A stretch of 64,000 nucleotides of DNA from IMG/VR virus record IMGVR_UViG_3300031111_000010, positions 1 through 64,000 of that record; one strand, 5' to 3'. The first letter of the stretch is position 1; each line of letters starts with the position of its first letter. This DNA comes from a virus. The notes beneath the pieces are model-generated. The model saw only the letters and a list, made by a program, of their open reading frames with translations, was not told the origin of the DNA and did no database searches. The translations under genes were made by a program, and so were the position numbers. This document shows, in pieces, positions 12,550 through 62,833 of the stretch.

Positions 12550-12584
12550 GCCCATTCTCCTGTTTGACTATATAGAGATGCACA

Positions 12585-12776
12585 TCATATGCCAAAATCA
12601 TCATCAAATTGTTTTTTATCGTAAATCATCATTAATCTACAACATACAGCAATAAAAAATACAAAAAATTCAAGAGGTTGAAATAGAATATTAAATAATA
12701 TATCAATAATGGCAATCCAGAACAGACTAAATGAAAATCCCATTATAACTATGAAAAGTAGGTAAAAAAATAACAT
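12585..12776 (-). CDS. Small membrane protein, 63 aa
   Basis: Two long hydrophobic stretches (residues 2-28 and 32-48). ATG at 12776 follows AAAGG. Ends K-Q-F-D-D-D-F-G-I, a weak match to the shared C-terminal tag. Transcribed from the divergent promoter at 12838-12866. A palindrome-like TGACAATTTTTGTAA lies in its leader. Confidence 0.55.
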   Translation of the reverse strand: MLFFYLLFIVIMGFSFSLFWIAIIDILFNILFQPLEFFVFFIAVCCRLMMIYDKKQFDDDFGI

Positions 12777-12790
12777 TTTTTGGCAACCTT

Positions 12791-12805
12791 TGACAATTTT
12801 TGTAA
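12791..12805. promoter_or_regulatory. Degenerate copy of the GACAA-N3-TTGTC palindrome
   Basis: TGACAATTTTTGTAA has one intact and one altered arm of the palindrome found as tandem pairs at 34180 and 62798. It lies in the leader of the 63-aa gene. A single, imperfect copy, so its relevance is uncertain. Confidence 0.35.
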
Positions 12806-18813: not shown

Positions 18814-18830
18814 TGGCATAGGTCTTGCAT
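18814..18830 (+). promoter_or_regulatory. Sigma54-type promoter motif
   Basis: TGGCATAGGTCTTGCAT: GG and GC dinucleotides exactly 12 apart, as in the -24/-12 consensus TGGCAC-N5-TTGCW. No gene follows on the + strand, so any transcript would be non-coding or antisense. Confidence 0.45.
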
Positions 18831-18928
18831 CGAATCGCATTCAGAATATATATTTTTTATATACTCTTGATGCTCATGTGAATATATAATTTTTATATAT
18901 CTCATTTTTTTTTATTTTTTTTTTGGTA

Positions 18929-18945
18929 AGCAAGAGTGATGCCAA
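18929..18945 (-). promoter_or_regulatory. Sigma54-type promoter motif
   Basis: On the minus strand TTGGCATCACTCTTGCT, GG to GC distance 12. Points toward the 9-18 kb gene block. Confidence 0.5.
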
Positions 18946-19146
18946 CTTTCCATTTTGCGTTGCGATGCACAATCATGAATTTCCGAAAAAAATCTTTTTA
19001 TTTTTCCTTTATATATCAGGGTCTTATATATAACGTCTGATAAGATATAATATGTAAAATCGTGAGCTAAGTGCTTGATATATAAACGAATATAGGTTTT
19101 TTGAGGTTTTTTAATGGTAGGCATAATCTACCATAAATAGTGTGTA

Positions 19147-19163
19147 AGCAACTATCGTGCCAA
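19147..19163 (-). promoter_or_regulatory. Sigma54-type promoter motif, best consensus match
   Basis: On the minus strand TTGGCACGATAGTTGCT, identical to the textbook TTGGCACG-N4-TTGCT. Only 17 bases separate it from an opposite-facing copy at 19180. Confidence 0.55.
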
Positions 19164-19179
19164 CCCTGTATATCGGATA

Positions 19180-19196
19180 TTGGCACATGTATTGCA
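19180..19196 (+). promoter_or_regulatory. Sigma54-type promoter motif
   Basis: TTGGCACATGTATTGCA, GG to GC distance 12; divergent from the 19147 motif. Confidence 0.5.
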
Positions 19197-19218
19197 TATA
19201 TCGCTGAAATTGGCGAAA

Positions 19219-19235
19219 TTGGCATATTCCTTGCA
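19219..19235 (+). promoter_or_regulatory. Sigma54-type promoter motif
   Basis: TTGGCATATTCCTTGCA, GG to GC distance 12, followed by the GC-richer stretch to 19400 that could be a non-coding RNA. Confidence 0.5.
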
Positions 19236-20698: not shown

Positions 20699-20976
20699 AA
20701 TACAAACTCACTTTCTTCTATGAACTCTTGATCTTTTGCATATATTATTCCTGTCCTATGTTCATATCCATAACAAGTAGATTTATCATTATCGATACTT
20801 ATTAAACCGGGACATGAATAACAGTCATTACATTTACCGGGACAGAAACGATCTATTTTGGTTATTATTCCTTTTTTTCTTTTTTCATTTTCAGTTTCAG
20901 GATAACCTACATAAACCTTTATTTCCATACCTATCTTTAGATGTTCATATGCATCATGTTTGTAGTAGATACTCAT
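20695..20976 (-). CDS. C-terminally tagged Cys-cluster protein, 93 aa
   Basis: Small beta domain (K-I-G-M-E-I-K-V-Y-V-G-Y) with C-P-G-K-C-N-D-C-Y-S-C-P, a likely metal site, and the tag D-Q-E-F-I-E-E-S-E-F-V-L, identical in its last eight residues to the next gene's product. Confidence 0.7.
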   Translation of the reverse strand: MSIYYKHDAYEHLKIGMEIKVYVGYPETENEKRKKGIITKIDRFCPGKCNDCYSCPGLISIDNDKSTCYGYEHRTGIIYAKDQEFIEESEFVL

Positions 20977-21488
20977 AATACAAACTCACTTTCTTCTATA
21001 AATAATTTTCTTGGTCTTTCTTTCTTTAATGGTTCTAATTCTTTCTTTATTGCTATATATTCATTTAAAGATGTTATTGCTGGTCTTTGAATACCGAAAA
21101 AATTCTCTTGACTTTCTATCCTTCTTACTATGCTTTTTATCTGTGAATGTTTTGCTTCTAGATGTCTTAGATGTTCCAGTTTCTTTCTGTAATAGGAATA
21201 AAGAGCATCTTGTTTTGATCTATAGGCAAATAGCTTTCTTGGTGTAATATTATGTTCCAATTGCTTTTTTATCCATTTCTTGTATCGTGTATTAACTTCA
21301 TTTGTATGGTAATGATAGTCTGGTACGATCCAATAGCCTTCAGGGGTTTCTCTGTATGCTCTATATCTGTTTTCTATTGGTTCTGCATTATAGCTTCCAG
21401 AACATGGGTCTTGATATCGATAGAAATAGATTTCTTCTCTTATCTCTATTGGTGCCATCTCATCAAATCGTAGTGGGAATATGTTCAT
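20973..21488 (-). CDS. C-terminally tagged protein, 171 aa
   Basis: Tyr/Arg-rich N-terminal half, coiled-coil middle (Y-Y-R-K-K-L-E-H-L-R-H-L-E-A-K-H), and tag K-L-F-I-E-E-S-E-F-V-L. Longest of the early tagged set. Unknown. Confidence 0.65.
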   Translation of the reverse strand: MNIFPLRFDEMAPIEIREEIYFYRYQDPCSGSYNAEPIENRYRAYRETPEGYWIVPDYHYHTNEVNTRYKKWIKKQLEHNITPRKLFAYRSKQDALYSYYRKKLEHLRHLEAKHSQIKSIVRRIESQENFFGIQRPAITSLNEYIAIKKELEPLKKERPRKLFIEESEFVL

Positions 21489-27399: not shown

Positions 27400-27489
27400 T
27401 GGAGGAAAGGACAGGATTCGAACCTGCATTAGTGTTACCTAAATAGAGTTTTCAAGACTCATCGACTATTCCCCACTGTCAACCTTTCC
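27400..27489 (-). tRNA. tRNA-Ser (anticodon UGA)
   Basis: Acceptor stem GGAAAGG/CCTTTCC, anticodon loop CTTGAAA identical to the E. coli tRNA-Ser(UGA) loop, long variable arm with TTAG/CTAA stem as in class II tRNAs, T-loop GGTTCGAATCC, and an encoded CCA. The discriminator is U, where serine tRNAs normally have G. Reads UCA (and other UCN by wobble). Confidence 0.92.
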
Positions 27490-27537
27490 TTATATGTCAC
27501 CGATTTGTTTAGTATTCATCTTCTTACCTTTTAATAC

Positions 27538-27624
27538 CGGAGAGTACTGGATTTGAACCAGTGCGAGTGTTACCCCGACCTAGGATTAGCAATCCTGTGC
27601 ATTACCATACTCTGCCAACTCTCC
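27538..27624 (-). tRNA. tRNA-Ser (anticodon GCU)
   Basis: Acceptor stem GGAGAGT/ACTCTCC, loop TTGCTAA with anticodon GCU, long variable arm (CGGG/CTCG), T-loop GGTTCAAATCC and discriminator G; CCA is not encoded. Reads AGC and AGU. It lies 48 bases upstream of the other serine tRNA. Confidence 0.92.
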
Positions 27625-31236: not shown

Positions 31237-32448
31237 TCATCCTTTCACAACTGCTAACGGCTTAAGCTCCACGGCTATATCTACAAGGTCTTTTTGATTA
31301 TCCATGACGGTAGAAATATCCTTGTATGCTCCACTTGCCTCATCAAGATCAGATACGTTTCGAATACCATGGACAATACCCTGTTCATCCAGCTTCTTAA
31401 TCTCATCCTTCAGGTTCAACTTCTCCTTGGCCTTTGATCTACTCATCAATCGACCAGAACCATGAGAACAAGACTTGAAACTTTCAGAATTACCCTTACC
31501 AACTACAATGTAGCTCTTGGTTCCCTGACTACCCGGAATGATACCATACTCATCTTCATATGCTCTGGTAGCACCCTTACGATGCACCAGCACATTCTTA
31601 CCAAAATGATTCTCCAATGCAGCATAGTTATGATGAATGTTGATATTGGTATTCTTAGCAGCAGTATCAAACTGAACATCTACATGGTTTGATATAGCTT
31701 CCATTACTCTCTGCATCATCAACTGACGATTAGCCAATGCAAAGTTACAGCAATAGTTCATTTCCTGAAAATACATCTTTCCTTCTTTGCTATCGAAAGG
31801 AAGAAAAGCTAACTGCCAACTTTTAGGAACATTAGACTGCCATTTTTCATTCAATTCAATAGCAATCTTATTATAGTGAGTAGCAACCTTATTACCCAAG
31901 TTTCTACTACCAGAATGAATCATGATCCAAATGTAGCCATCACTACCCTGCTGGATTTCAATGAAATGATTTCCACCACCCAAAGTACCAATCTGCTTCT
32001 TAGCACTATCCCATTCATCATAGATAACAGTATTATTGAAGTCAAAAAAATCAACAGGTAAATTGGGAATATTATGATCATCTTTATTATGCTTGAAACC
32101 AACAGGCACCAGCTTACGGATATCACCCATGATCTTTTTCAAGATGGTCTTATCTAAGCTACCAGCAAACAGGGAAGTTCTTAAAGCTATCATACCGCAA
32201 CCGATATCAACACCCACGGCATTAGGCACGATGTAACCCTGAGTAGCCATAACACCACCAATAGGCATACCATAACCCTGATGCATATCGGGCATACCAG
32301 CAACATGATGGAAAACAAAAGGCAACATAGATAAATGCTCCATCTGTTCAAGAGCACCAGCTTCCACTTCACCTAACCATAATTTGATAGGCACTCGATA
32401 TTCACCATGCTTATATATAACATTGAAATTATTTTTTAACTGTATCAT
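31237..32448 (-). CDS. rtcB: RNA-splicing ligase RtcB, 403 aa
   Basis: G-V-D-I-G-C-G-M (Mn site), G-G-G-N-H-F-I-E, H-S-G-S-R-N-L-G, D-I-H/N-I-H-H-N-Y-A, R-K-G-A-T-R-A and S-C-S-H-G-S-G-R (the guanylylated His) are all present. Full-length for the shorter RtcB class. Joins 2',3'-cyclic phosphate to 5'-OH RNA ends, as produced by anticodon nucleases; a phage copy can restore cleaved tRNAs. GAGGAA ribosome site overlaps the upstream small gene. Confidence 0.95.
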   Translation of the reverse strand: MIQLKNNFNVIYKHGEYRVPIKLWLGEVEAGALEQMEHLSMLPFVFHHVAGMPDMHQGYGMPIGGVMATQGYIVPNAVGVDIGCGMIALRTSLFAGSLDKTILKKIMGDIRKLVPVGFKHNKDDHNIPNLPVDFFDFNNTVIYDEWDSAKKQIGTLGGGNHFIEIQQGSDGYIWIMIHSGSRNLGNKVATHYNKIAIELNEKWQSNVPKSWQLAFLPFDSKEGKMYFQEMNYCCNFALANRQLMMQRVMEAISNHVDVQFDTAAKNTNINIHHNYAALENHFGKNVLVHRKGATRAYEDEYGIIPGSQGTKSYIVVGKGNSESFKSCSHGSGRLMSRSKAKEKLNLKDEIKKLDEQGIVHGIRNVSDLDEASGAYKDISTVMDNQKDLVDIAVELKPLAVVKG

Positions 32449-33220: not shown

Positions 33221-33721
33221 TTAATCCCAATGGTTTTCGTAGTATTCACCACCATGAGAGAAGGTGAAATAACCCTTGCGATAGCTGCACTGTTCTTTTT
33301 TATTACCCTGCACGATGAAAGGATAAGAACCAATAAATGAAGTACCACTACCGAAATTTCTTACATGTAACCGGAACTCAGGACCAACAACCCTATTACC
33401 AGCTTTGGCTTTACCATTTCCACCAAATTCTTGACCATTGGTGATCGTTTCAACCATCCGACACTTGACGGTTTTACCAGTAGGAGAAACATCAATGATC
33501 TTGGCAAAATTATTAATGGTCATATTATAACCATATGAAGCATGAAGTTTTTTGCCTACCCATTCATGTTTCTTAACAGATTTCTTGACAGCTTTCTTGA
33601 TCTTACGGGTTTTCTTTTCTACCTTTTGAAATTCAGGCACTTCATCATCTCTCAAAGTAGTCAGACTGTTGATTCCTCTTGCCCTCAGAATTGCCATGTC
33701 TTTTTCGGTCAATCGGCTCAT
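33221..33721 (-). CDS. Hypothetical basic protein, 166 aa
   Basis: Lysine-rich linker (K-K-T-R-K-I-K-K-A-V-K-K-S-V-K-K) at residues 35-50, then a beta domain. C-S-Y-R-K-G-Y-F near the end. GAAAGGAC ribosome site. Own promoter 30 bases upstream. Possibly nucleic-acid binding. Confidence 0.65.
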   Translation of the reverse strand: MSRLTEKDMAILRARGINSLTTLRDDEVPEFQKVEKKTRKIKKAVKKSVKKHEWVGKKLHASYGYNMTINNFAKIIDVSPTGKTVKCRMVETITNGQEFGGNGKAKAGNRVVGPEFRLHVRNFGSGTSFIGSYPFIVQGNKKEQCSYRKGYFTFSHGGEYYENHWD

Positions 33722-33793: not shown

Positions 33794-33810
33794 ATGGGGC
33801 AAAGCCCCAT
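33794..33810. terminator. Hairpin between two minus-strand units
   Basis: ATGGGGC/GCCCCAT with a three-base loop just after the 78-aa gene. T-rich on the + strand side only. Confidence 0.5.
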
Positions 33811-33813
33811 ATT

Positions 33814-34091: not shown

Positions 34092-34109
34092 TTGCAGTTG
34101 CTGTGCCAA
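34092..34109 (-). promoter_or_regulatory. Sigma54-type promoter
   Basis: On the minus strand TTGGCACAGCAACTGCAA, GG to GC distance 12. Predicted start about 34082 gives a 32-base leader with GAAAGGAC before the 78-aa gene. Confidence 0.6.
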
Positions 34110-34179
34110 GATTGTAATTTTTTTTATATAGTTATTTCAGTCACTTGAAAAATTAGTATTTTTGATTGGGTAAAAAACA

Positions 34180-34214
34180 TGACAAAAATTGTCAAACTTA
34201 TGACAAAAATTGTC
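34180..34214. promoter_or_regulatory. Tandem palindromes, candidate activator (enhancer) site
   Basis: TGACAAAAATTGTCA at 34180-34194 and TGACAAAAATTGTC at 34201-34214, 21 bp (two helical turns) apart. Sits midway between two divergent sigma54-type promoters, about 90-100 bp from each, where bacterial enhancer-binding proteins bind. Same arrangement at 62798. Confidence 0.65.
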
Positions 34215-34277
34215 CAGATAGTTATATACTTTACTCCGGTAAATTTGTAAGTACTTGATATTATTACAAGTGAAAAG

Positions 34278-34294
34278 TTGGCACAGGGTCTGCA
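34278..34294 (+). promoter_or_regulatory. Sigma54-type promoter
   Basis: TTGGCACAGGGTCTGCA, GG to GC distance 12. The predicted start is about 34305, next to the ATG at 34307, so the mRNA would be nearly leaderless. A poor sigma70 reading (TTGGCA-N17-TATGGC) cannot be excluded. Confidence 0.5.
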
Positions 34295-34543: not shown

Positions 34544-34771
34544 ATGGATATCATCGAAAAGATCATGAAAGAGCAGATGGGTTTTATTGTAGATGATAAT
34601 CAGCTTCTTCAGATTATCGCCATTGACCCTAATTATGAAATTCTGATTCGGGCAAATCTTTATCGTATAGTTGTACCTGCTTATAAAGTGGTGGAGAAGA
34701 TAAAGAAAATCAATGATGAAAAAAATAATCATGTTCGTGATATTTCTATTGGTTTTACCCGTATCGGTTAA
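34544..34771 (+). CDS. Hypothetical protein, 75 aa
   Basis: Helical, M-D-I-I-E-K-I-M-K-E-Q-M start resembling a coiled-coil dimer. GAAAGGATAAAAA ribosome site. Unknown. Confidence 0.6.
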   Translation: MDIIEKIMKEQMGFIVDDNQLLQIIAIDPNYEILIRANLYRIVVPAYKVVEKIKKINDEKNNHVRDISIGFTRIG

Positions 34772-34779
34772 AAAAGTTC

Positions 34780-34811
34780 TTGACAGGGAACATATTGTTT
34801 GATATGTTCCC
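34780..34811 (+). promoter_or_regulatory. Sigma70-type promoter with built-in operator palindrome
   Basis: TTGACA (34780-34785), 17-bp spacer, TATGTT (34803-34808). A perfect inverted repeat GGGAACATAT/ATATGTTCCC (34786-34811) fills the space from the -35 box through the -10 box, so a bound repressor would block polymerase. Confidence 0.7.
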
Positions 34812-34840: not shown

Positions 34841-35758
34841 ATGACGTTTTTTCAAGCAATCGAAACTAAAGATGTAAACGTGGCTATGGAAGCAGGTAAC
34901 CATAACTTTGAAGCTATCAAAGAAGATTTGTTTACTGCTGATGGTCTTCGTATTCCCGATCATGTTGCTGTTCTCAATCAAAACACTGGTGATTATTTGG
35001 GTACAGTTGGCAGGGGTTACGAACCAGTTCAACCGGAAACATTCTATGAGTTAGCTGATGAGTTCATCGAATCAACTGATGCAATGATTGATGGTGTTCT
35101 CAATTTCAGGAATGGATCAACTATGGGTCTGTCCTTTCATATCGCAGATCGTGAGTATATCGCTGGTGATCCGATTTCACTCCGGTTCATGATGGTCAAT
35201 GGTTTTGATGGTTGGCAGGGTCTGAATGGTTTTGCTCCTACCAATCGGATAGCTTGTCTGAATGTATGTAATTCATCCAATCGTGTCTATAACCTGAAGC
35301 ATACCAAAAATGTTCTCAATCGTGTTCAGGTTGTCAAGAACATGCTCAAGTATTATCAGAATGAGATTGCATCATTTGATGATAAGATGAATTATCTTGT
35401 TGGACATCGTATGAATGAAGCAGAGGCTGTCAAGTGGTTTCGTTCTCTGTTTCCGAAACCTACTTCCCGTAGGTCTGAAACCATACTGGATAACAAGGTT
35501 GCGGTTTTTGTTGATTGTCTATTGCATGGTAGGGGTTCTGAAATTGCTGGTGTTCGTGGAACGTCTTACGGTGCTTTTCAGGCACTTACTGAGTATATCA
35601 ACCACCACCGTTCAGTTCGGGTAACAGAAGGTAGAGAAGAAGATGAAGTCCGTTTTGAAGCTATCCATTTTGGTACTGGTAACTCTCTTACTCAGCGTGG
35701 ATTGACTTCTCTTACCACTGGTTTCGGTTTTACTGCTGACGAATTTCGTATCGATTAA
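34841..35758 (+). CDS. DUF932 phage/plasmid-like protein, 305 aa
   Basis: L-G-T-V-G-R-G-Y-E-P-V-Q near residue 50, F-M-M-V-N-G-F-D-G and R-I-A-C-L-N are characteristic of the DUF932 (TIGR03299) family, widespread in phages and plasmids without known activity. ATG at 34841 follows AAAGGAGTGTGTAAC. Strong regulated promoter suggests abundant early product. Confidence 0.82.
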   Translation: MTFFQAIETKDVNVAMEAGNHNFEAIKEDLFTADGLRIPDHVAVLNQNTGDYLGTVGRGYEPVQPETFYELADEFIESTDAMIDGVLNFRNGSTMGLSFHIADREYIAGDPISLRFMMVNGFDGWQGLNGFAPTNRIACLNVCNSSNRVYNLKHTKNVLNRVQVVKNMLKYYQNEIASFDDKMNYLVGHRMNEAEAVKWFRSLFPKPTSRRSETILDNKVAVFVDCLLHGRGSEIAGVRGTSYGAFQALTEYINHHRSVRVTEGREEDEVRFEAIHFGTGNSLTQRGLTSLTTGFGFTADEFRID

Positions 35759-43407: not shown

Positions 43408-43415
43408 TATTTATA
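43408..43415 (-). promoter_or_regulatory. T4-type late promoter TATAAATA
   Basis: Exact octamer on the minus strand overlapping the stop of the upstream adhesin gene; drives the sheath-lectin fusion. Confidence 0.7.
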
Positions 43416-45867
43416 AAATAAAAGGTTCAGTTGGTACTGTGAAATCAGATTTATATAAACATTTATATTTAGTAACTCTCCATTCATCCCAATAACTTCT
43501 AAAATTCTCAGAACCAGCGTTATTTCCTCCAAAATGAAATCTAGTTTGTGTTAAATCATTTCCATTATCTCCATGAGTTTCTTCTGTTATTCTTATACCA
43601 TTTACAAAATATCTCCATATATAACCTTCTCTTGTTAAAGCTATATGACTCCATACATCATTAGCTATAACTGCTCCATTAGAAGGAGAAACTACATTTA
43701 CATAAACACCAGAACCATATGTTTGAACAAATAATACACAAGGACTTGATGTAGCTTCATGTATAATCCAAAGACCACCTGCTGTAGCATTATTTCCTAT
43801 TTGAAAAACTCTACCATATGCATCTCCCAATCCATTATTAGCTGGTCTTATCCATCCTTCAATAGTAAAGTCTTCTGTTCTTAATGCTTCTGGTGGGAGA
43901 GCAGTTCTAGAAAGTAAAGTATCCGTATCACCATCACATCCTAAAGAAGAAGACCCAAATTTGAATTGTGCTGTTCTCAATCCAGCATTATCATAATGAC
44001 CAAAAGCATCTAATCCACGAACATCATCATCTACTACTTGACTAAGGTTTGGTCCTTCAAAATGGACAAGAGATATAACTTTAGCACTTGTACTTGAAGA
44101 ACTACTCACTGAATTTGATGAACTACTAAATGAGCTTGAAGATTCAGAAGAACTTGAAGAACTCTCACTTGAAGAAGAAGAACTATATGATCCTTCTATA
44201 AGCATGTGATCATTAAAAATATACATTGTTGTTTTATTTTTATTTGTATCTAATAGGTCATCTAAAACTCTCCATTCAGCAACTATACCATCCCATCTTG
44301 AATTTGGATTATTAATTAATCCACCTAATCCAAAATTATAATCATCATAATCATCATTTCCTGAAGAACCAGTACCATCATCATAGAAAATCTCACCTAA
44401 ATATACTTTAGGATTAGTTACTGTCATAGTTTGAGAATAAGAATACCATACATCACCTGATGCTGTATCACTAAAACTAGTACTTCTACCACCAGTTACA
44501 TTACACCATGCTCTTGCAGGATTAGTTGTATCATACCACAAACATCTATCATTTTGACCCATAAAAGGACCACTAGCAGTAGTTTTTATTGCAGGATCAT
44601 TATCAGCTTTAAAGAACATTTCTATTTGAGCAGATGTATAAAATCTTGTTTTCTTAATATTAGTATCAAGATATTGATCAACACCATTGAAATGCCATCC
44701 ATAACCCATTGGTGTATCTTCTACCCATGCACTTGCTGGTAAAGTATTTGTTATATTAAAACTTCCATTTGCTGAATTATAAAAAGTAGATGCACTTGCT
44801 GGTTCATCAAAGTGTATTACTTGTCTATATTGTTGATTATTTCCAAGTACAGCTTCACTCCATACTGATTGTGCTGGTGTAGTTCCTTTTATACCAACAT
44901 TAGCTGAATTATCAACACCATCAATTCTCACTATTATGTTTCTATTTACACCTATATTTAAAGGCATAGCAAACCAAATTATAGGATTACCAGTATTCCA
45001 ATTTAATATCTCAGCAGGATATTCAGTACCATCTGATGCTAATTTTATATGTAAATTCTCTAATGGTTTTCCACTTTGAACTATTGGAGATGTTTCATCA
45101 AGTTTTAACATTACAGGATAAACATTATTTCTGAATATATTAGCACCACTTGTATGATAAAATAGTTCTATTGGTGTAAATGAGAAAGAGCTTGAGCTTG
45201 ACGATAAACTTGAGCTTGAGCTTGAGCTTGAAGAACTATAACTTGAGCTTGAGCTTGAGCTTGAAGAACTTAGGCTTGAAGATGAAGATGATCGTTCTGA
45301 TTCGCTACTTGATGATTTACTACTTGAACTAAACTCAATTGACCATGCTGTATCTCTTACATAGAAGTAATCATAATTGAAATTGACAGTACTTTCTAAT
45401 AACACATCTCCTTCATGTTGAGAAAAAGAAACTTCTCCCATTGTGCTAGGCCAGATACCTACAAAGATAACTTCTAATATTGCATATCCATAATTATTAG
45501 TGACAACAAGAGAACAATCAACTGAATACTCATCATGATATTCAGATATTTTATTGTTATTATTGTTAATATAACTCATCCAATCGAATAATAATTTCCA
45601 ATTATAAAGCAATGAATCGACAGTAAAGCTAACCATCCATGGATCATATTCCATTGGTATCATTCCACGCTTTGTTTTATTACCTTGCCATCTATGTTCT
45701 TCATTTGCTAAAGTAATTGATGGAAGCATTGTGGTATGGATATTCATAATAAATGGATTATTAGCACCGATAGAATTCTCACCGGGAATTAATGGAAACA
45801 CTAATTGATAATTCGTAGGTGTTCCCTTATCCATATTATTCAAATTTGATGTGTTACATACTATCAT
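43411..45867 (-). CDS. Tube-fold-anchored modular adhesin A, 818 aa
   Basis: Residues 1-180: tail-tube-like domain (F-V-G-I-W-P-S-T-M-G-E-V-S-F then F-N-Y-D-Y-F-Y-V, as in gp19). 181-232: poly-Ser. About 235-545: DUF2341-like plus LamG-like modules. About 549-590: poly-Ser. 595-818: C-terminal LamG (F-T-I-E-G-W-I-R-P, W-R-V-T-K). No ribosome site; the late promoter abuts the ATG. Likely tail-displayed receptor or glycan-binding protein. Confidence 0.8.
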   Translation of the reverse strand: MIVCNTSNLNNMDKGTPTNYQLVFPLIPGENSIGANNPFIMNIHTTMLPSITLANEEHRWQGNKTKRGMIPMEYDPWMVSFTVDSLLYNWKLLFDWMSYINNNNNKISEYHDEYSVDCSLVVTNNYGYAILEVIFVGIWPSTMGEVSFSQHEGDVLLESTVNFNYDYFYVRDTAWSIEFSSSSKSSSSESERSSSSSSLSSSSSSSSSSYSSSSSSSSSSLSSSSSSFSFTPIELFYHTSGANIFRNNVYPVMLKLDETSPIVQSGKPLENLHIKLASDGTEYPAEILNWNTGNPIIWFAMPLNIGVNRNIIVRIDGVDNSANVGIKGTTPAQSVWSEAVLGNNQQYRQVIHFDEPASASTFYNSANGSFNITNTLPASAWVEDTPMGYGWHFNGVDQYLDTNIKKTRFYTSAQIEMFFKADNDPAIKTTASGPFMGQNDRCLWYDTTNPARAWCNVTGGRSTSFSDTASGDVWYSYSQTMTVTNPKVYLGEIFYDDGTGSSGNDDYDDYNFGLGGLINNPNSRWDGIVAEWRVLDDLLDTNKNKTTMYIFNDHMLIEGSYSSSSSSESSSSSSESSSSFSSSSNSVSSSSSTSAKVISLVHFEGPNLSQVVDDDVRGLDAFGHYDNAGLRTAQFKFGSSSLGCDGDTDTLLSRTALPPEALRTEDFTIEGWIRPANNGLGDAYGRVFQIGNNATAGGLWIIHEATSSPCVLFVQTYGSGVYVNVVSPSNGAVIANDVWSHIALTREGYIWRYFVNGIRITEETHGDNGNDLTQTRFHFGGNNAGSENFRSYWDEWRVTKYKCLYKSDFTVPTEPFIL

Positions 45868-45872
45868 AATCT

Positions 45873-45880
45873 TATTTATA
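45873..45880 (-). promoter_or_regulatory. Late promoter TATAAATA abutting start codon
   Basis: Only five bases (AGATT) separate the octamer from the ATG at 45867, so T4-type initiation would give a leaderless mRNA. Confidence 0.7.
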
Positions 45881-45948
45881 TATACCGTAAAATATTAACT
45901 TGTGCTTAAATTACTTCCTTTATCAATAGAATACTAAACTGCTATATC

Positions 45949-48900
45949 TTAAAGTGTAAGAAGATCGCCCATAATATTATGTGATACCGCTTTAGCATAA
46001 GCATCTGAACGTCCAGCAAGAGACAGTCTGAATTCAGACATAAGCCACTCATGTTTGTCTCCATAGACAGGACGATACCCATACACTTGAAAAAGAACGG
46101 AATCGGTGTCAGTACTTGATTCTAATAATACTTCTCCATTATTATATATAGTTAGTGTACTTGATGTTCTCTTAACTATAAAATGAGTCCACTCACCAAC
46201 AACAATATCAGCATCCTCGTAATTTGTGCTGCTGCCCCCACTATCAAGATCAACATAAATCTTTACATTTGCGTGAAAGGCTATTCCTTGGTAAGAATTT
46301 CCAGAAGCATTTCTGCATATACTGGCAACAAACGTGGGAGGGAGTTCTTGTCTGTTATATAAAAAGTCTAAAGTAAAATCTCCTGATATAGAAAAGTCTT
46401 CTGATATATAATCATTAACTCCATCAAAGTGGATATGAGCATATCCATCTTCTCTTGAAAAAACTGGTGTTCCGTGAAGTGTTCCATCATGAGCATTTAC
46501 AGTAGAATCTGTGGCATCTTCTACTAAATGCCAAACCGCTTCATAGTCCTCATCCCATACACCTTGAGCAGCAATTTCTCCTGTCTCCCCTATATAACCT
46601 GTTATTCCGTCACATGAGTTAATTGTGAAGTTGTCAAGTGTTACATCAACAACCCCATTATTCTCTTGCTCAAAAAATAATTGAACAGTGAGATCATTTG
46701 AATTACTCGTTACCAAACTTATTCCATCTGTATTACCTGAACCCCATACCCACTCATCAGTCACCCCCCAATAATAGGCAGTTATCAATCCACTACTATT
46801 TCTAGTAAGTCTTAACTTACCAGTAGTATGAGCAGTCCACAAAGAGGTTTCAGTTCTATCTGTTCCATATACTCTATATTCTTGATCCCCATCAGAACTT
46901 TTCTGCATGTTAATCAAACCAATTTGGGAACCAGCATCCAATAATCTGAATATAGGTAAGTGATGAAAACCATCATCTGGAGTTGTGAGAGAAATAATAT
47001 CAAAATCAATTTGAATATCAAATGCTCCAGACAGAATAAAATTACTATCAATTTGAGTTTTGTGATTTGCATCATCTCCAAGAGAATTATATTCCAATTT
47101 ATTATTTTGAATACTCAGATAATCAGAACCAACAGAAACGGTTTTTGTCCATTTGGCAGAGTCAGGAGAGCTACCATCTTCTCCTGTGAAATCATCAAAT
47201 ACTTCAGGAGAAGTTATTACCCGTTCGTAATTATTTTCTTCACCAAAAACAACCTTGATGGTAGTGTCTTCACTACTGGAAGCTGACGGAATTCTCGCAT
47301 GAAGAATACCAAGATCATTTGTTGGGTTCCATTCTTCTACTTCTGTGTAACATTCAACATCATCTACAGTGATATGGAGATACTTCCAATCTGTAGTCTC
47401 TGTAGCAGATACAATAGTAGATGGAAGAACTATTCTTACCGGAAAGTTGGTAAGAGTGGCATCAATTTTACTACTATCTATTGTGTAATATAGTGGTGGT
47501 GTAGTAGAACTTGAGCTTGAACTTGATTGACTTGAACTACTTCCTTCTGTTAATAGTATATTTTTCAATACTGCATTTGTAGCTTTTAACCATGCAGCAG
47601 ATCGAGTAATAGAAGATATCCGAACTTCTCCAATTTGCCCATTAAACCAAATGGACGATGGATTATCCCTATTATCTTTTCCAATTTTTAGTGAATAATC
47701 ATTTTGCAGACTTCCTGATCCTAAAGTATCATCATTATTTTTTGTCACTGTATCTTCTATTCCAGAAACAAATAGCTTCAGAATTTCACTCGCACCCGAT
47801 CCATCGTAAGTATGAGCAAGATAATAAAATTCATCATCTTCTAAAATGATGTCTGCGGTATAATCTTTTACATCTGATGAACCTTCTCTTAAGTAAACCC
47901 TGAACTGCTGTGAGTCAGTGAATTCAAAATTTATTGCTCCGACTGAAGAATTGCGATAGTTGCCAATGATCACACCCCTGTCGTTATCTCTTTCACCAAG
48001 AACAAATGCTTCAAATGAATGTTTTTCATCTCCTTGTAAATCCAGAACATTCACATCAGTGTCGGTTCCCATATAATCGTTACTGCCATCAAAATCTATT
48101 GCTTTACCAAATACTCCATCTACTAAATCACCAGAAGTCATACTACCATAAGTAGTACAATGTCTCTCATGGGAAGTAGAATCAAGGACCACCTTTGAAG
48201 CATCCGTTGGGTCTTGATTCATATGGTAAACCATTTCAAAACCAGAATTCCATACATTCTGTGCAGCAGATGTTCCAGTAGAACCAATATAAGAATTATT
48301 ACTTCCATATTCTAATTTAAGATTGATATCATGTCCACTTGGAATAAATGGAACTTTAGTCCATATTGTTCCAGATGTTTCCCAACTTTCAACTTCAGTA
48401 AATAATTCAGTACCACCAGATGTTACATGTAAATTCTCATATGAATTAGCACTTGTAAAATCAGATGGAAGTATTATACCTACTGGAAAATCTATTAAGT
48501 TCTCATCTATATTATTACTATCAATGGTGTAATATAATGGTGGTGTAGTACTACTTGAACTTGAACTTGAAAGAGAACTACTACTACTTGAACTTGAACT
48601 TGAAAGAGAACTTGAAGAACTTGAACTTGAAAGAGAACTTGAAGAACTTGAGCTTGAAGAACTTACTGATGGACAAATAACAGTACCACTATTGACAATA
48701 AAATTATCAATATCACATCTATTATTATCACCTGCATTATAGTCATACATTAAGAATCTAACAAAACAATCATCTGTAGTCATTGTTTTACTACCAGCAG
48801 AAGACCAACTACCAGAATTAGCATTATCATAATATACTGATACTGTTGATCCACTTCTTGTTATTCTTAATCTACCATAATCATTTGTTCTTCCATAAGT

Positions 48901-50793
48901 ATCATCATCAGGCGAACCTGTACTAAATCTTCTCAAGTAATTATTTCCACCTTGATATTGTGGTTTTATAAAAACAAAATATCCATTATCAAAGTGAATT
49001 TCTATAGCCATTCCAGCAGCAAAATTATTATTAGTTACTAAATTTTTATAATCACATTGAATATCAAAATCACCACTTATCTTAAATTTTGAATCAATAT
49101 ATGCATTATCACCACCAGCATTATTTGAACCAGTTAAAGTAAATCTAGCAGCAGATGCACTTATTTTTACATCATAAGCTGTAGGTGAATAATCAGTAGT
49201 TATCGCTGTCCATCTATTAGGATTAAGATCATCACCATCTGCTCCTGAAAAATCATCACTTGCTGTTATGAAGCAAGAGCTTGAACTTGAGCTTGAAAGA
49301 GAACTACTACTACTTGAACTTGAGCTTGAAAGAGAACTACTAGAAGAATTACTTGAGCTTGAAAGAGAACTACTAGAAGAATTACTTGAGCTTGAAAGAG
49401 AACTACTACTCAAAGAAATACTTGAAGAACTGCTTGAATAACCATCACTTGGTGGTAAGAATCCTTCTGGTGGTGTATATTCTAATTGATATGTTCTTGA
49501 TCTAATTTTACATTTTTGTTTAATATCAGTATTAATAGCAAAAAATGCACTTGATCCTATAAATTCAGTTTCAGTATAAGATGGAGAACCAGAAACACCC
49601 GGAAGACCTGTATCCCATGTTCCATTTTTTCCAAACCAAATATCACCAGTACCCATATCCCATGCTATCATCATAACATCCGGTGCAGCCCAATTATGAT
49701 TATAGGTAAAATAAGTACCATCATGATATAATCTATTAAAATAATTTATAGTACCAACACCAACAGCACTTCCATCTTGTCCTATAAATCCATTATCTCT
49801 ATGATTACCATCCATTAAACCAAATCCCGGCCAATGAAATGAAGTAGAGCTTGCTTCTATCCATTCTAACTCTATATACCATTTACCAGTGGTAGTATAT
49901 CCAACAGTTCTCATTATATCATTATTTGATGTATTATTATGATGTATTTCTCTATCTTGATCAAAAAAATCATAATTTGATGCTGTTGTATATGTAGAAT
50001 CAAATCTGAATAAATCTAAAAATGTACTTGAAGATTCAGAACTTGAAGATTTAGAGCTTGAGCTTATCGATGAACTTGAAGAACTCAGGCTTGAGCTTGA
50101 GCTTGACATAGAACTTGAGCTTGAGCTTGAAGAAGAACTCAGGCTTGAGCTTGAGCTTGACAGAGAACTTGAGCTTGAGCTTGAAGAAGAACTCAGGCTT
50201 GAGCTTGATGATGATATCCAAGATCGACTACTAGATGATTGAGAACTTGAACTAAATTCAGCAGTCCATTCTGTATCCCTAATATAGAAGTAATCATAAT
50301 TAAAGTTTACAGTACTTTCTAATAGCATATCTCCTTCACGTTGAGAAAAGGATATCTCACCAATCTGCATAGGCCAAATATCTACAAAGATGATTTCTTT
50401 CACCATATTACCATAGTTATCAGTAATCACCATTGCAGCATCAACAGAATACTCACTATGATATTCAGCTATTTTATCATTGTTATTGTTGATAAACTGC
50501 ATCCATTTTCTCAGTAAATTCCAGTTAGCAAGATTTACATCTACAACAAAACTTACTAACCAAGGATCAAATTCCATAGGTGATAGAGCACGTTTAGATT
50601 TAGTTCCATGCCATCTAAGTTCTTCTACTGCTATTGAAACTGGTGGAACAATAGCTGAATGTATGTTCATAACAAAAGGATTATTAGCGGCTATAGTAGT
50701 CTCTGTGGGTATCTTAGGAAATATCAATTGATAATTCGTAGGAGTACTCTTATCTATGTTATTCAAATTTGATGTGCTACATACTATACTCAT
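45949..50793 (-). CDS. Tube-fold-anchored giant modular adhesin B, 1614 aa
   Basis: Residues 1-180: tail-tube-like domain. 181-256: poly-Ser. About 257-450: SPRY-like domain (G-K-W-Y-I-E-L, W-D-M-G-T-G-D-I-W-F-G-K-N-G-T-W). 451-512: poly-Ser. 513-705: ConA-like jelly roll. 706-755: poly-Ser. 757-850: DUF2341. 855-1055: LamG. Then a second DUF2341-ConA-LamG series to the end. Module borders repeat A-W-L-K-A-T-N-A-V-L-K-N-I. Carbohydrate binding is inferred from module types. Confidence 0.82.
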   Translation of the reverse strand: MSIVCSTSNLNNIDKSTPTNYQLIFPKIPTETTIAANNPFVMNIHSAIVPPVSIAVEELRWHGTKSKRALSPMEFDPWLVSFVVDVNLANWNLLRKWMQFINNNNDKIAEYHSEYSVDAAMVITDNYGNMVKEIIFVDIWPMQIGEISFSQREGDMLLESTVNFNYDYFYIRDTEWTAEFSSSSQSSSSRSWISSSSSSLSSSSSSSSSSLSSSSSSLSSSSSSSSSSMSSSSSSLSSSSSSISSSSKSSSSESSSTFLDLFRFDSTYTTASNYDFFDQDREIHHNNTSNNDIMRTVGYTTTGKWYIELEWIEASSTSFHWPGFGLMDGNHRDNGFIGQDGSAVGVGTINYFNRLYHDGTYFTYNHNWAAPDVMMIAWDMGTGDIWFGKNGTWDTGLPGVSGSPSYTETEFIGSSAFFAINTDIKQKCKIRSRTYQLEYTPPEGFLPPSDGYSSSSSSISLSSSSLSSSSNSSSSSLSSSSNSSSSSLSSSSSSSSSSLSSSSSSSCFITASDDFSGADGDDLNPNRWTAITTDYSPTAYDVKISASAARFTLTGSNNAGGDNAYIDSKFKISGDFDIQCDYKNLVTNNNFAAGMAIEIHFDNGYFVFIKPQYQGGNNYLRRFSTGSPDDDTYGRTNDYGRLRITRSGSTVSVYYDNANSGSWSSAGSKTMTTDDCFVRFLMYDYNAGDNNRCDIDNFIVNSGTVICPSVSSSSSSSSSSLSSSSSSSSLSSSSSSSSSSLSSSSSSSTTPPLYYTIDSNNIDENLIDFPVGIILPSDFTSANSYENLHVTSGGTELFTEVESWETSGTIWTKVPFIPSGHDINLKLEYGSNNSYIGSTGTSAAQNVWNSGFEMVYHMNQDPTDASKVVLDSTSHERHCTTYGSMTSGDLVDGVFGKAIDFDGSNDYMGTDTDVNVLDLQGDEKHSFEAFVLGERDNDRGVIIGNYRNSSVGAINFEFTDSQQFRVYLREGSSDVKDYTADIILEDDEFYYLAHTYDGSGASEILKLFVSGIEDTVTKNNDDTLGSGSLQNDYSLKIGKDNRDNPSSIWFNGQIGEVRISSITRSAAWLKATNAVLKNILLTEGSSSSQSSSSSSSTTPPLYYTIDSSKIDATLTNFPVRIVLPSTIVSATETTDWKYLHITVDDVECYTEVEEWNPTNDLGILHARIPSASSSEDTTIKVVFGEENNYERVITSPEVFDDFTGEDGSSPDSAKWTKTVSVGSDYLSIQNNKLEYNSLGDDANHKTQIDSNFILSGAFDIQIDFDIISLTTPDDGFHHLPIFRLLDAGSQIGLINMQKSSDGDQEYRVYGTDRTETSLWTAHTTGKLRLTRNSSGLITAYYWGVTDEWVWGSGNTDGISLVTSNSNDLTVQLFFEQENNGVVDVTLDNFTINSCDGITGYIGETGEIAAQGVWDEDYEAVWHLVEDATDSTVNAHDGTLHGTPVFSREDGYAHIHFDGVNDYISEDFSISGDFTLDFLYNRQELPPTFVASICRNASGNSYQGIAFHANVKIYVDLDSGGSSTNYEDADIVVGEWTHFIVKRTSSTLTIYNNGEVLLESSTDTDSVLFQVYGYRPVYGDKHEWLMSEFRLSLAGRSDAYAKAVSHNIMGDLLTL
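47541..47603 (-). repeat. Module-border repeat, copy 1
   Basis: Encodes A-W-L-K-A-T-N-A-V-L-K-N-I-L-L-T-E-G-S. Nearly identical DNA at about 50833 and 51836, in the neighbouring adhesin. Likely recombination points for domain shuffling. Confidence 0.8.
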
Positions 50794-50798
50794 AATCT

Positions 50799-50806
50799 TA
50801 TTTATC
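50799..50806 (-). promoter_or_regulatory. Variant late promoter GATAAATA abutting start codon
   Basis: Same A-A-A-T-A-A-G-A-T-T-A-T-G context as the adhesin A promoter, with G in place of the first T. Weaker or decayed. Confidence 0.5.
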
Positions 50807-53168
50807 CTGAACTTGAACTTGAACTTGAACTACTTCCTTCTGTTAATAGTATATTTTTCAATACTGCATTTGTAGCTTTTAACCATGCAGCAGATCGGGC
50901 AATATTAGAAATACGAACTTCCTCTACTTCTCCTGCTCTATATCCAATTGTTGAGTCTGGTGTTCCACCAATACCAATGGTATCAATACCTGTAGGCCAA
51001 GCATCTCCACCAGTATCCTCTTGCTCTGTTCCTCCATTAGTATATAATTTTCTACTCGTAGAAGTAACTAACGCTGAAGCTAAATAAGCAAATTCTCCTG
51101 CATCAAGACTTACTGTTCCATTTAAAAGAGTAGTACCAGTCGAGTAAAAATTTAATCTTCCAATGTTTCCATACATATTAAGTAATACCATTTGATCTGG
51201 TTCACTAACATCTCCAATTCCAACTGACGGATTGTTATTTGATGCTGCTGTAATAGTAGCACGACCAGCACATTCTAAGGTAGCAGGGTAATCTGTTAAA
51301 CCAGAAACACTTGCAGTAACAATATCGTTGTTACCATCAAAATCTATTGCTTTACCAAATACTCCATCTATCAAATCATCTGAAGTCATTGATCCATTAA
51401 ATGATCCATTATGTAAATTAGAAGTACTATCTAATAATGTTCCACCAGTTGGATTTTGACTCATATGATATACAGCTACAAAGTTCTCATCCCATACTGT
51501 CTGTGCAGCACTTGTACCCGTAGAACCAATATAAGAATTATTACTATTATATTCTAATGTCAGTACTGTATCTCTGTTTGCTGGTATCCAAGGAACTTTA
51601 GTCCATATTGTTCCAGATGTTTCCCATGTATCTACTTCAGTATAAAGTTCATTACCACCTGATACAGTAACATGTAAATTCTCATATGAATTAGCACTTG
51701 TAAAATCAGATGGAAGTATTATACCTACTGGAAAATCTATTAAGTTCTCATCAATCTTACTACTATCTATTGTGTAATATAGTGGTGGTGTAGTACTACT
51801 TGAACTTGAACTTGAAGTAGAAGAACTTGAACTACTTCCTTCTGTTAATAGTATATTTTTCAATACTGCATTTGTAGCTTTTAACCATGCTGATGATCTT
51901 TGTATATTAGAAACTCTTACTTCTCCTATTTGACAATTTAGATAATCAACAGAGAAATAATTATCTGGTACTTTCGCTAATAATGGAGGACTAAAATCAG
52001 CAGTTCCATTAGGAGCAGAGATAGAATCTGTGTCATCATTTTTGTATATATTAAAAGTACCATTTACTTCATATGATGCAGCAAAGTATTCAAATACATC
52101 AAGATTGACAGGACTAATAGTTAAAATTACTTCATTACCATCTACACCAAATCTATAATCCCATGAACTACCATTATTGAAATTATAAATTCTAAGTCTA
52201 TCTGAAAAATCTGATCTATCGGAAACAAAAATAGGAGCATAATTATTACTACCACCTAAAACATCTATTAAAGTAAATACTTCAACTGTTCCTATGGTAT
52301 TATCCATTACATCTGGCATACTTATATAATCATTACTACCATCAAAATCTATTGCTTTACCAAATACTCCATCTACTAAATCACCAGAAGTCATAGAACC
52401 ATGGGTATCACCATGATTTCCATTAACTGTGGAATCTAAAATTGTATCTGTTCCATCGGTTGGGTCTTGACTCATATGATATACAGCTACAAAGTTCTCA
52501 TTCCATACATTCTGTGCAGCAACTTCTCCTGTTTGACTTATATTCCAAGGAACAATAACATCACAAGAATTTATAGCAAAATTATCAAAGGTATAAACTA
52601 ATGGTGTTGCTGAAGTAGAATTACGATATGCCATAAATCCTACATAAACATCGTCTTCTATCCAAGTATGTGCTGAACCTATTTGTGACCATGAACCATC
52701 TTCTTCATTTTTATAATAAGCTGATACTTGATTTCCTACTCGTTTAATTCTAAATTTATTAGTATAAGGATTCGATTTGCTACTTATATTAACTTCATCC
52801 CAAGAATCATTACTACCAGCATCATCATATCTGAAATAAGCATAGGGGGTTCCCGATCTATTTATTAGTCCTACAAAACCCCATTCAGAAGTATTATTGT
52901 CTTTATTCGGAGAAATATAAACTCCACCTTGTTGAATACTTACTACTTGACCTGTAACAGTTACAAAGTCAAACTCTATTTCAAAATCACCTTTAATTAT
53001 TCTATTGAGAGTTTTATAATGATTTCCGCTATTACCTGATGAAATGGTCATTTGTGCTTCATTATCATCTATAACAGTAGAACCTGTTCCACTATTACCA
53101 GCAGCATCATACCACCATTCTTTTGAGAAATCATCTCCATTTGTTCCTGTAAAATCATCAATTATCAT
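50802..53168 (-). CDS. Adhesin C, unanchored second half, 788 aa
   Basis: Begins directly in a ConA-like domain (I-I-D-D-F-T-G-T-N-G-D-D-F) with no tube-like anchor. Order: ConA (1-205), LamG (215-420), short poly-Ser, DUF2341 (438-540), LamG (545-765), poly-Ser end. Its ATG overlaps the stop of the 624-aa gene (ATGA) behind AAAGGA. In adhesin B the same junction (Y-E-R-V-I-T-S-P-E-V-F-D-D-F-T-G) is continuous, so this looks like a gene split. Confidence 0.78.
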   Translation of the reverse strand: MIIDDFTGTNGDDFSKEWWYDAAGNSGTGSTVIDDNEAQMTISSGNSGNHYKTLNRIIKGDFEIEFDFVTVTGQVVSIQQGGVYISPNKDNNTSEWGFVGLINRSGTPYAYFRYDDAGSNDSWDEVNISSKSNPYTNKFRIKRVGNQVSAYYKNEEDGSWSQIGSAHTWIEDDVYVGFMAYRNSTSATPLVYTFDNFAINSCDVIVPWNISQTGEVAAQNVWNENFVAVYHMSQDPTDGTDTILDSTVNGNHGDTHGSMTSGDLVDGVFGKAIDFDGSNDYISMPDVMDNTIGTVEVFTLIDVLGGSNNYAPIFVSDRSDFSDRLRIYNFNNGSSWDYRFGVDGNEVILTISPVNLDVFEYFAASYEVNGTFNIYKNDDTDSISAPNGTADFSPPLLAKVPDNYFSVDYLNCQIGEVRVSNIQRSSAWLKATNAVLKNILLTEGSSSSSSTSSSSSSSTTPPLYYTIDSSKIDENLIDFPVGIILPSDFTSANSYENLHVTVSGGNELYTEVDTWETSGTIWTKVPWIPANRDTVLTLEYNSNNSYIGSTGTSAAQTVWDENFVAVYHMSQNPTGGTLLDSTSNLHNGSFNGSMTSDDLIDGVFGKAIDFDGNNDIVTASVSGLTDYPATLECAGRATITAASNNNPSVGIGDVSEPDQMVLLNMYGNIGRLNFYSTGTTLLNGTVSLDAGEFAYLASALVTSTSRKLYTNGGTEQEDTGGDAWPTGIDTIGIGGTPDSTIGYRAGEVEEVRISNIARSAAWLKATNAVLKNILLTEGSSSSSSSSSG
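50833..50890 (-). repeat. Module-border repeat, copy 2
   Basis: Same 50-60 bp border element as at 47541, at the 3' end of adhesin C. Confidence 0.75.
51836..51893 (-). repeat. Module-border repeat, copy 3
   Basis: Same border element inside adhesin C, between its two module series. Confidence 0.75.
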
Positions 53169-55039
53169 TCGGTTATTTCCTTTGAATAATTATTGCTACC
53201 ATATTCCAATTTCAATACTGTATCACTTGCAGATGGAATAAATGGTACTTTAGTCCAAATTACTGCTCTATCATTAGAAGGTTCCCATACATCTACTTCA
53301 GTATAAAGTTCTGTATTACCACCTGACACTGTAACATGTAGATTTTGCCATCCAGAAGTAGGTTGACTTGAAATAAATCCTGTACCTGAAACATTAATAC
53401 CTACTGGAAAATTTGTTAAGTTCTCATCAATTTTACTACTATCTATTGTATAGTAAAGTGTTGATATAGTAGAAGTAGAAGCAGAACTTACACTTGAACT
53501 TGAAGATTCTGAGCTTGAACTACTCACTGAACTTGAAGATTCTGAGCTTGAACTACTTACTGAACTTGAAGATTCTGAGCTTGAACTTGAATAACTTGAA
53601 CTTGAATAACTTGAACTTGAACTTGAGCTTGAAAGAGAACTTGAAGATTCACTTGAGCTTGAACTTGAGCTTGAACTTGAAAGAGAACTTGAAGATTCAC
53701 TTGAGCTTGAACTTGAAAGAGAACTTGAAGATTCACTTGAGCTTGAACTTGAAAGAGAACTTGAAGATTCACTTGAGCTTGATTGACTTGAGCTTGAAAT
53801 ATTATAATATTCTATTTCACAAGGATAAATTAAAACACCACCACCTTCTGTTGTTGATGTTGCTCCCCACTTATTATCACCACCATAATAACGACTTGTA
53901 TCATTTCTTAATTTAAACCATCTTGCAGTCTGTGGTGTATCGAAGTCTACTCTAAATGCAAATTCATATCCAGTTCCTAAAACTGAAGGTGAATGAATTG
54001 GTGGTTTAATCCATGTATCAATCCATTCCCATGTTATTCCATCATCTGATTTATATGCACCAACTACTCCACTATCATTATCAACCCATGCATCATAAAT
54101 ACGACTTGATGATGATGTTCTAAACCAGAAAATAATACCATTGATTGTCATTGGTTCTGTTGTAGCCACCCAAAATGACGTATTATAACCAACATAATCA
54201 TTATCTGCTACTGCATATATATTACCATCTATTAGTCCGGGATATGATGCTGAGTTTTCTGTTACAAGAGGATTAGGATTCCATCCACTCCATGCACCTA
54301 CAAGATACGTCGAAGAAGAACTTGATTTTGATGAACTTGATTTTGATGAACTTGAGCTTGAACTTGAAAGAGAACTTGAAGATTCACTTGAGCTTGAACT
54401 TGAGCTTGAAGAACTCAGGCTTGAACTTGAGCTTGAAGAACTCAGGCTTGAACTTGATGATGATGTCCAAGATTTAGAAGAAGAAGATCGAGAAGAAGAA
54501 CTAAATTCAGCAGTCCAAGCTGTACTTCTCACATAGAAATAATCATATTCAAAGGTGACCATACTTTCTAATACAATATCACCTTCTCTTTGTGACATTC
54601 CAATTTCTGCTAACTGAGTAGGCCAAATATCAACAAACACTATTTCCATAACAGGTTTTTTATAGTTGTTCGTAATTATCATTGATGCATCAACTGAATA
54701 TTCTTTATGATATTCAGCTATTTTATCACAATTATTATTGATATAACTCATCCACCTGAATAATAAACTCCAATTATCCAATCGTGAATCAACAACAAAG
54801 TTAACCATCCAACTTTCAAATTCTAATGGGTTTAAGTCATACTTGACTTTATTACCTTGCCAACTTATCTCATTAACCCCTATATTCAAGGATGGAATAA
54901 CAGCAGAGAAGATATTCATTACGAAAGGATTGTTAGACGCAATACTACTTTCAGTTGGTATCAGGGGAAATACCAACTGAAAATTTGTAGGTGTGGCCTT
55001 GTCTATATTATTAAGGTTGGATGTATTGCATACTATCAT
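53165..55039 (-). CDS. Tube-fold-anchored adhesin D (first half), 624 aa
   Basis: Residues 1-179: tail-tube-like domain (V-D-I-W-P-T-Q-L-A-E-I-G-M-S-Q, F-E-Y-D-Y-F-Y-V). 180-245: poly-Ser. About 246-425: discoidin-like (F5/8 C-type) domain with P-G-L-I-D-G-N and A-R-W-F-K-L-R. 430-525: long poly-Ser with E/Y/L interruptions. 530-624: DUF2341, cut short at the stop. Adhesin C continues the architecture. Start is leaderless-type. Confidence 0.8.
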   Translation of the reverse strand: MIVCNTSNLNNIDKATPTNFQLVFPLIPTESSIASNNPFVMNIFSAVIPSLNIGVNEISWQGNKVKYDLNPLEFESWMVNFVVDSRLDNWSLLFRWMSYINNNCDKIAEYHKEYSVDASMIITNNYKKPVMEIVFVDIWPTQLAEIGMSQREGDIVLESMVTFEYDYFYVRSTAWTAEFSSSSRSSSSKSWTSSSSSSLSSSSSSSSLSSSSSSSSSSESSSSLSSSSSSSSKSSSSKSSSSSTYLVGAWSGWNPNPLVTENSASYPGLIDGNIYAVADNDYVGYNTSFWVATTEPMTINGIIFWFRTSSSSRIYDAWVDNDSGVVGAYKSDDGITWEWIDTWIKPPIHSPSVLGTGYEFAFRVDFDTPQTARWFKLRNDTSRYYGGDNKWGATSTTEGGGVLIYPCEIEYYNISSSSQSSSSESSSSLSSSSSSESSSSLSSSSSSESSSSLSSSSSSSSSSESSSSLSSSSSSSSYSSSSYSSSSSESSSSVSSSSSESSSSVSSSSSESSSSSVSSASTSTISTLYYTIDSSKIDENLTNFPVGINVSGTGFISSQPTSGWQNLHVTVSGGNTELYTEVDVWEPSNDRAVIWTKVPFIPSASDTVLKLEYGSNNYSKEITE

Positions 55040-62674: not shown

Positions 62675-62692
62675 ATGCAGACCGTGTGCCAA
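62675..62692 (-). promoter_or_regulatory. Sigma54-type promoter
   Basis: On the minus strand TTGGCACACGGTCTGCAT, GG to GC distance 12. Predicted start near 62665 gives a 43-base leader with a good ribosome site. Confidence 0.6.
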
Positions 62693-62797: not shown

Positions 62798-62833
62798 TGA
62801 CAATTTTTGTCAAACATATGACAATTTTTGTCA
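62798..62833. promoter_or_regulatory. Tandem palindromes, candidate activator site
   Basis: TGACAATTTTTGTCA at 62798-62812 and again at 62819-62833, again 21 bp apart and about 130 bp upstream of the sigma54-type promoter. The second overlaps the SpoVR stop codon. Confidence 0.65.

Follow-up and report, generated by a model that had tools for sequence, protein, structure and literature searches.

In the PilS-PilR system, pilA is controlled by the AAA+ response regulator PilR, which PilS phosphorylates when pilin in the membrane is scarce. In Pseudomonas, Geobacter, Moraxella and, for pilE, commensal Neisseria, the PilS-PilR/sigma54 control region combines an upstream activating sequence (UAS) with a -24/-12 promoter located about 80-140 bp away, and sigma54 promoters are often helped by IHF-type proteins. 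Phages, in the usual view, rely on housekeeping sigma factors or on their own polymerases, and known cases of borrowed host regulators include host sigma70 early promoters and host IHF. For Pseudomonas phages that target the pilus, it was suggested that replication may need PilR activation (PMC13170266).

The phage locus described here has the UAS and -24/-12 arrangement of pilA control, and differs from it in being phage-borne, with phage genes instead of pilin and one enhancer for two divergent promoters. As in other phages that borrow host factors, host machinery would read phage genes; unlike in those phages, it would do so through enhancer-dependent sigma54 and a two-component activator signalling the state of the pilus. 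PilR activity would be linked to infection as it is for type IV pilus-dependent Pseudomonas phages such as PO4, but the PilR dependence of PO4-type phages is explained by the receptor, whereas here PilR-type sites are found in phage promoters. No earlier description of phage promoters of this PilR/sigma54 type was found in the open-access literature, a provisional result.

The window, i.e. the whole stretch of 64,000 nucleotides analysed (coordinates below refer to it unless stated otherwise), belongs to a virus record of 81,176 bp, IMGVR_UViG_3300031111_000010, with genes for terminase, portal, major head protein and tail sheath. Bases 2-127 of this record are identical to the end of IMGVR_UViG_3300031111_000007 (132,451 bp, hereafter G003), which makes a 126-bp overlap, and the tetranucleotide profiles of the two contigs correlate with r 0.997. 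The overlap indicates that both are probably neighbours in a single genome, 213 kb or more in length; G003 was thus dropped as an independent relative, being probably the same phage. G003 encodes a DNA polymerase B, RecA, a DnaB-like helicase and a gp6-like baseplate protein, and by its sequence the phage is classified as a T4-like jumbo myovirus. A megablast search for known cultured relatives with the 30-42 kb region gave no match among 50,697 phage records.

The tandem palindromic enhancer (UAS) is located at 34180-34215, with the sequence TGACAAAAATTGTCA-AACTTA-TGACAAAAATTGTCC, in an AT-rich region. It contains two perfect GACAA-N3-TTGTC dyads (GACAAAAATTGTC, at 34181-34193 and 34202-34214), with centres 21 bp apart, and presents the tandem dyads on one helix face that are expected of a sigma54 UAS. 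It is flanked by two divergent sigma54-type promoters, P2 on the minus strand (34093-34109, TTGGCACAGCAACTGCA), which reads left, and P3 on the plus strand (34278-34294, TTGGCACAGGGTCTGCA), which reads right. Both have the strict form TTGGCAC-N5-CTGCA, with GG at -24, GC at -12 and the fixed spacing of the consensus TGGCAC-N5-TTGCW, and the sole departure from this consensus, at 34093 and 34278 as well as at the 62676 promoter described below, is a T-to-C change at the first position of the -12 element. From the operator centre to the near edge is about 88 bp for P2 and 81 bp for P3, which bears out the preliminary description of the two promoters as almost equidistant. An exact IHF consensus, WATCAANNNNTTR, is present on the minus strand between the enhancer and P3 (34248-34260); such a match between enhancer and promoter was found at one of the seven sites and is suggestive there, and IHF was dropped as a general component of the module on this count.

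The module is repeated. The whole set on the two linked contigs amounts to seven promoters and six operators. A second perfect tandem enhancer, TGACAATTTTTGTCA-AACATA-TGACAATTTTTGTCA, is found at 62798-62833, overlapping the 3' end of spoVR, and lies upstream of the predicted promoter P4 on the minus strand (62676-62692, TTGGCACACGGTCTGCA). The third tandem palindrome, at 12771-12805, is degraded, with 4 of 24 positions mismatched, and lies upstream of P1, also on the minus strand (12579-12595, TTGGCATATGATGTGCA). Strict -24/-12 sites face away from each of the operators at 12771, 34180 and 62798, and on G003 there are three further tandem operators, from each of which a promoter likewise points away. 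The promoters share the extended form TTGGCAYANNNNNTGCA, followed in most of them by TATATA and, a few bases on, by GCAA. A complete set of spoVR, DUF444 (yeaH-like) and prkA (yeaG-like) genes stands beside the second operator (window 62831-64000, record 64001-67784).

We compared these counts with 100 sequences resampled from the 81-kb record under a first-order (dinucleotide) Markov model. Four perfect single palindromes were observed against a mean of 0.14 per resampled genome, two perfect 21-bp tandems against none in the 100 resamplings, and four strict promoters (TTGGCAC-N5-YTGCA) against none. When two mismatches were allowed, the resulting loose promoter pattern showed no enrichment in the window (19 against 16.9); therefore the strict form alone is informative, and loose matches were discarded as evidence. 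The paired palindrome at 21-bp spacing and the divergent sigma54-type promoters that had been proposed around it were thus both recovered, the former at its exact positions and the latter in strict form on both sides, and neither arose in the resampled genomes.

Most of the promoters precede arrays of short genes of no assigned function, with ribosome-binding sites. The first gene under P2 (33814-34050, minus strand) codes for 78 aa of no known family and has a ribosome-binding site; 3' of it lies a hairpin, ATGGGGC-TTT-GCCCCAT followed by GGCG (33794-33812, minus strand), and then a second gene (33221-33721, minus strand, 166 aa) with a weak match to phrog_37844, of unknown function. The hairpin, ATGGGGC-N3/4-GCCCCATGGCG, has just three copies in 213 kb (33794-33812, and G003 14234 and 130725), all inside operons, those of P2, P5 and P7, and oriented with transcription. 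On the other side, the first ORF after P3 (34307-34540, plus strand, 77 aa, no family) has its ATG nearly at the predicted transcription start, and its true start may lie downstream. It is followed on the same strand by a small gene (34544-34771, 75 aa, no family) and, in line, by a DUF932 (PF06067) gene (34841-35758, 305 aa), for which a separate sigma70-type promoter may also be present, near 34780. The gene under P4 (62092-62622, minus strand) codes for 176 aa of no known family and has a homologue at the same place in the related phage G005, and the first gene under P1 (12409-12549, minus strand) codes for a predicted membrane peptide of 46 aa with a ribosome-binding site. A phage HU/IHF-family protein gene is found inside the P7 operon (L020 2333-2602).

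In phage G005 (loci L019 and L048), whose terminase is 77% and head protein 93% identical to those of this phage, the 3' end of spoVR retains both perfect dyads and a sigma54 site. The corresponding position in the fragment L047 has one perfect dyad, a decayed second one and a sigma54 site, with a different gene downstream, while the site is absent from the more distant relatives L049-L053. The DUF932 gene was tried as a handle on relatives and led to one distant locus, without sites. Among viral sequences, the palindrome followed at 62-92 bp by the promoter was found in 28 stretches, compared to 2 for a control palindrome scrambled at equal composition, and a second operator-promoter distance range gave 18 viral stretches. 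The contigs with this pattern range from about 30 to 64% GC; no activator was found in the records tested and no pilin gene by the site, and 13 of 33 records tested matched terminase, for which a single family was searched. BLAST with the short operator returned pilin-linked DNA in a phage-labelled Acinetobacter record and otherwise weak hits with chance-level E-values. That record, CAKLQF020000004.1 ('Acinetobacter phage MD-2021a', 154981-160002), carries a single palindrome upstream of a pilin gene, together with chromosomal-looking bacterioferritin, O-antigen ligase and pilin genes, and looks mislabelled as phage.

In bacteria, the exact tandem operator was sought in 84,980 species genomes and occurred in 20 stretches, 14 of them titled as Deltaproteobacteria/Desulfobacterota lineages. 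In 13 of the 20, a gene for a type IVa pilin lies 137-421 bp downstream and points away from the operator; the other seven have no neighbouring pilin gene, possibly reflecting another enhancer-binding protein or a wider PilR regulon. When at most two mismatches were allowed, the operator was present in 12 of 395 evenly drawn Desulfobacterota genomes and the reversed-pattern control in none; pilin was found downstream at 9 of 13 sites, with a sigma54-type site between in 7 of these 9. An identical tandem operator precedes a pilin gene in Moraxella atlantae. Immediately before the operator, two genomes (G012 and G016) have a response regulator gene whose product combines receiver, AAA+ and Fis-type domains, and the operator of G016 is followed by pilA. 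The recognition helices of these two enhancer-binding proteins, SFRSMRHRL and TFRSFRHRL, are PilR-like, so that the operator is seen both as a pilin upstream element and adjoining a gene for a PilR-like regulator. In Geobacter the gene order is reported to be pilR-pilA, with PilR regulating the RpoN-dependent pilA promoter (PMC2725144), and the arrangement in G012 and G016 matches it. Taken together with the pilin-linked sites, the operator is best read as an enhancer of the PilR type, which is, on sequence grounds, its most likely identity. From the operator identity, the host of the phage is probably a member of the Desulfobacterota.

No candidate activator was found in the phage contigs. 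The enhancer-binding AAA+ domain PF00158 was absent from 40 viral records, PF04552 (sigma54) from 14 viral records, and a GAFTGA-like motif from the two linked contigs, which possibly make an incomplete genome and in which neither sigma54 nor a sigma54-activator domain was found. PrkA, an AAA+ protein whose gene adjoins the 62-kb site, was rejected as activator, as it belongs to Pfam AAA_PrkA/PrkA and neither contig has a GAFTGA-like motif. The activator is therefore expected to come from the host, unless it is encoded in unseen sequence. The AAA+ activator that the preliminary description had proposed to look for in the genome was not found in the phage contigs, and the best candidate is host PilR. 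The enhancer-binding-protein layout controlling two operons, also proposed there, is supported by its recurrence, its conservation in relatives and its match to the layout upstream of pilA; the repetition of the module and its correspondence to pilA control regions go beyond that description.

We consider it likely that the locus is a PilR-type enhancer serving divergent sigma54 promoters, by which a T4-like jumbo phage borrows host PilR and sigma54. Phosphorylated host PilR would bind both tandem palindromes as an oligomer and loop to host RNA polymerase-sigma54 at the -24/-12 sites, so that promoters on both sides of the enhancer would be opened. The seven promoters would then form a small phage regulon, mostly of short genes of no assigned function, switched on solely where the pilus-control system of the host is active. 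We infer here the binding, the activation, the host, the timing and the benefit.

An operator that is merely pilA-like, with a different host enhancer-binding protein driving the sigma54 promoters, would fit the seven of 20 exact sites that have no pilin gene beside them and the many such proteins carried by Desulfobacterota genomes. Most sites of the unbiased scans, however, precede pilA, the enhancer-binding protein gene next to the operator in two genomes has a PilR-like helix, and a wider Geobacter PilR regulon has been reported, with 54 predicted loci as cited in PMC6058289; we regard this explanation as unlikely. PilR could also be sequestered, as each genome carries several strong operators and their number rises with replication; the operators would then be decoys that titrate PilR to turn pilus production off and block superinfection, with the promoters secondary. 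Each operator, however, has a strict promoter that points towards genes, most of these with a ribosome-binding site, and this counts against decoys, which need no promoter and which we hold to be very improbable.

Small regulators are common in phages and much of this proteome is unassigned, and the palindromes might be operators of a phage regulator of another type, with incidental -24/-12 matches. The absence of the strict promoter from the resampled genomes, the promoter-palindrome pairing in 28 viral stretches against 2 for the control and the identity of this pairing with the pilA layout make this slightly less credible again than titration. That the element is chance or repeat-derived sequence without function, for which the AT-rich region might speak, is hardly tenable in view of the resampling, the recurrence of the module and its retention in relatives despite diverged surrounding DNA.

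If control by host PilR is true, the expression of phage genes would be conditional on a host signal of surface behaviour, and PilR activity would have a reason, beyond pili, to matter in infection, a question raised in PMC13170266. The short operator-promoter signature is searchable in any phage collection. One idea that would fit is licensing: a cell open to entry via the pilus would be one in which PilR has been active. G003 contains at 20947-21132 (L132 6001-6183) a 61-aa ORF with a class III prepilin leader, MNRKGFTLIE (MNRKGFTLIELVICIMILIILGFMG...), possibly a mini-prepilin that targets PilS or the pilus. A wider pilus-licensed programme, in which many phages of different hosts would carry PilR/sigma54 promoters and fire accessory genes only in piliated, infectable cells, and in which such a mini-prepilin could give feedback to PilS or to the pilus, is speculative and in our opinion doubtful.

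Five further sigma54-type sites are located on both strands within about 420 bp (18814-19235), without a palindromic operator, inside a 1.6-kb AT-rich non-coding region. Judged from their positions, some of them would give antisense or non-coding transcripts; an Rfam search around this cluster gave no match. The window also contains two tRNA-Ser genes (27400-27624) and genes for large structural proteins with long poly-serine linkers (43411-55039), and RNA-repair genes for RtcB, an RNA ligase and an RlaP-like protein are present across the linked contigs (window 31237-32448; L017 5218-7565).
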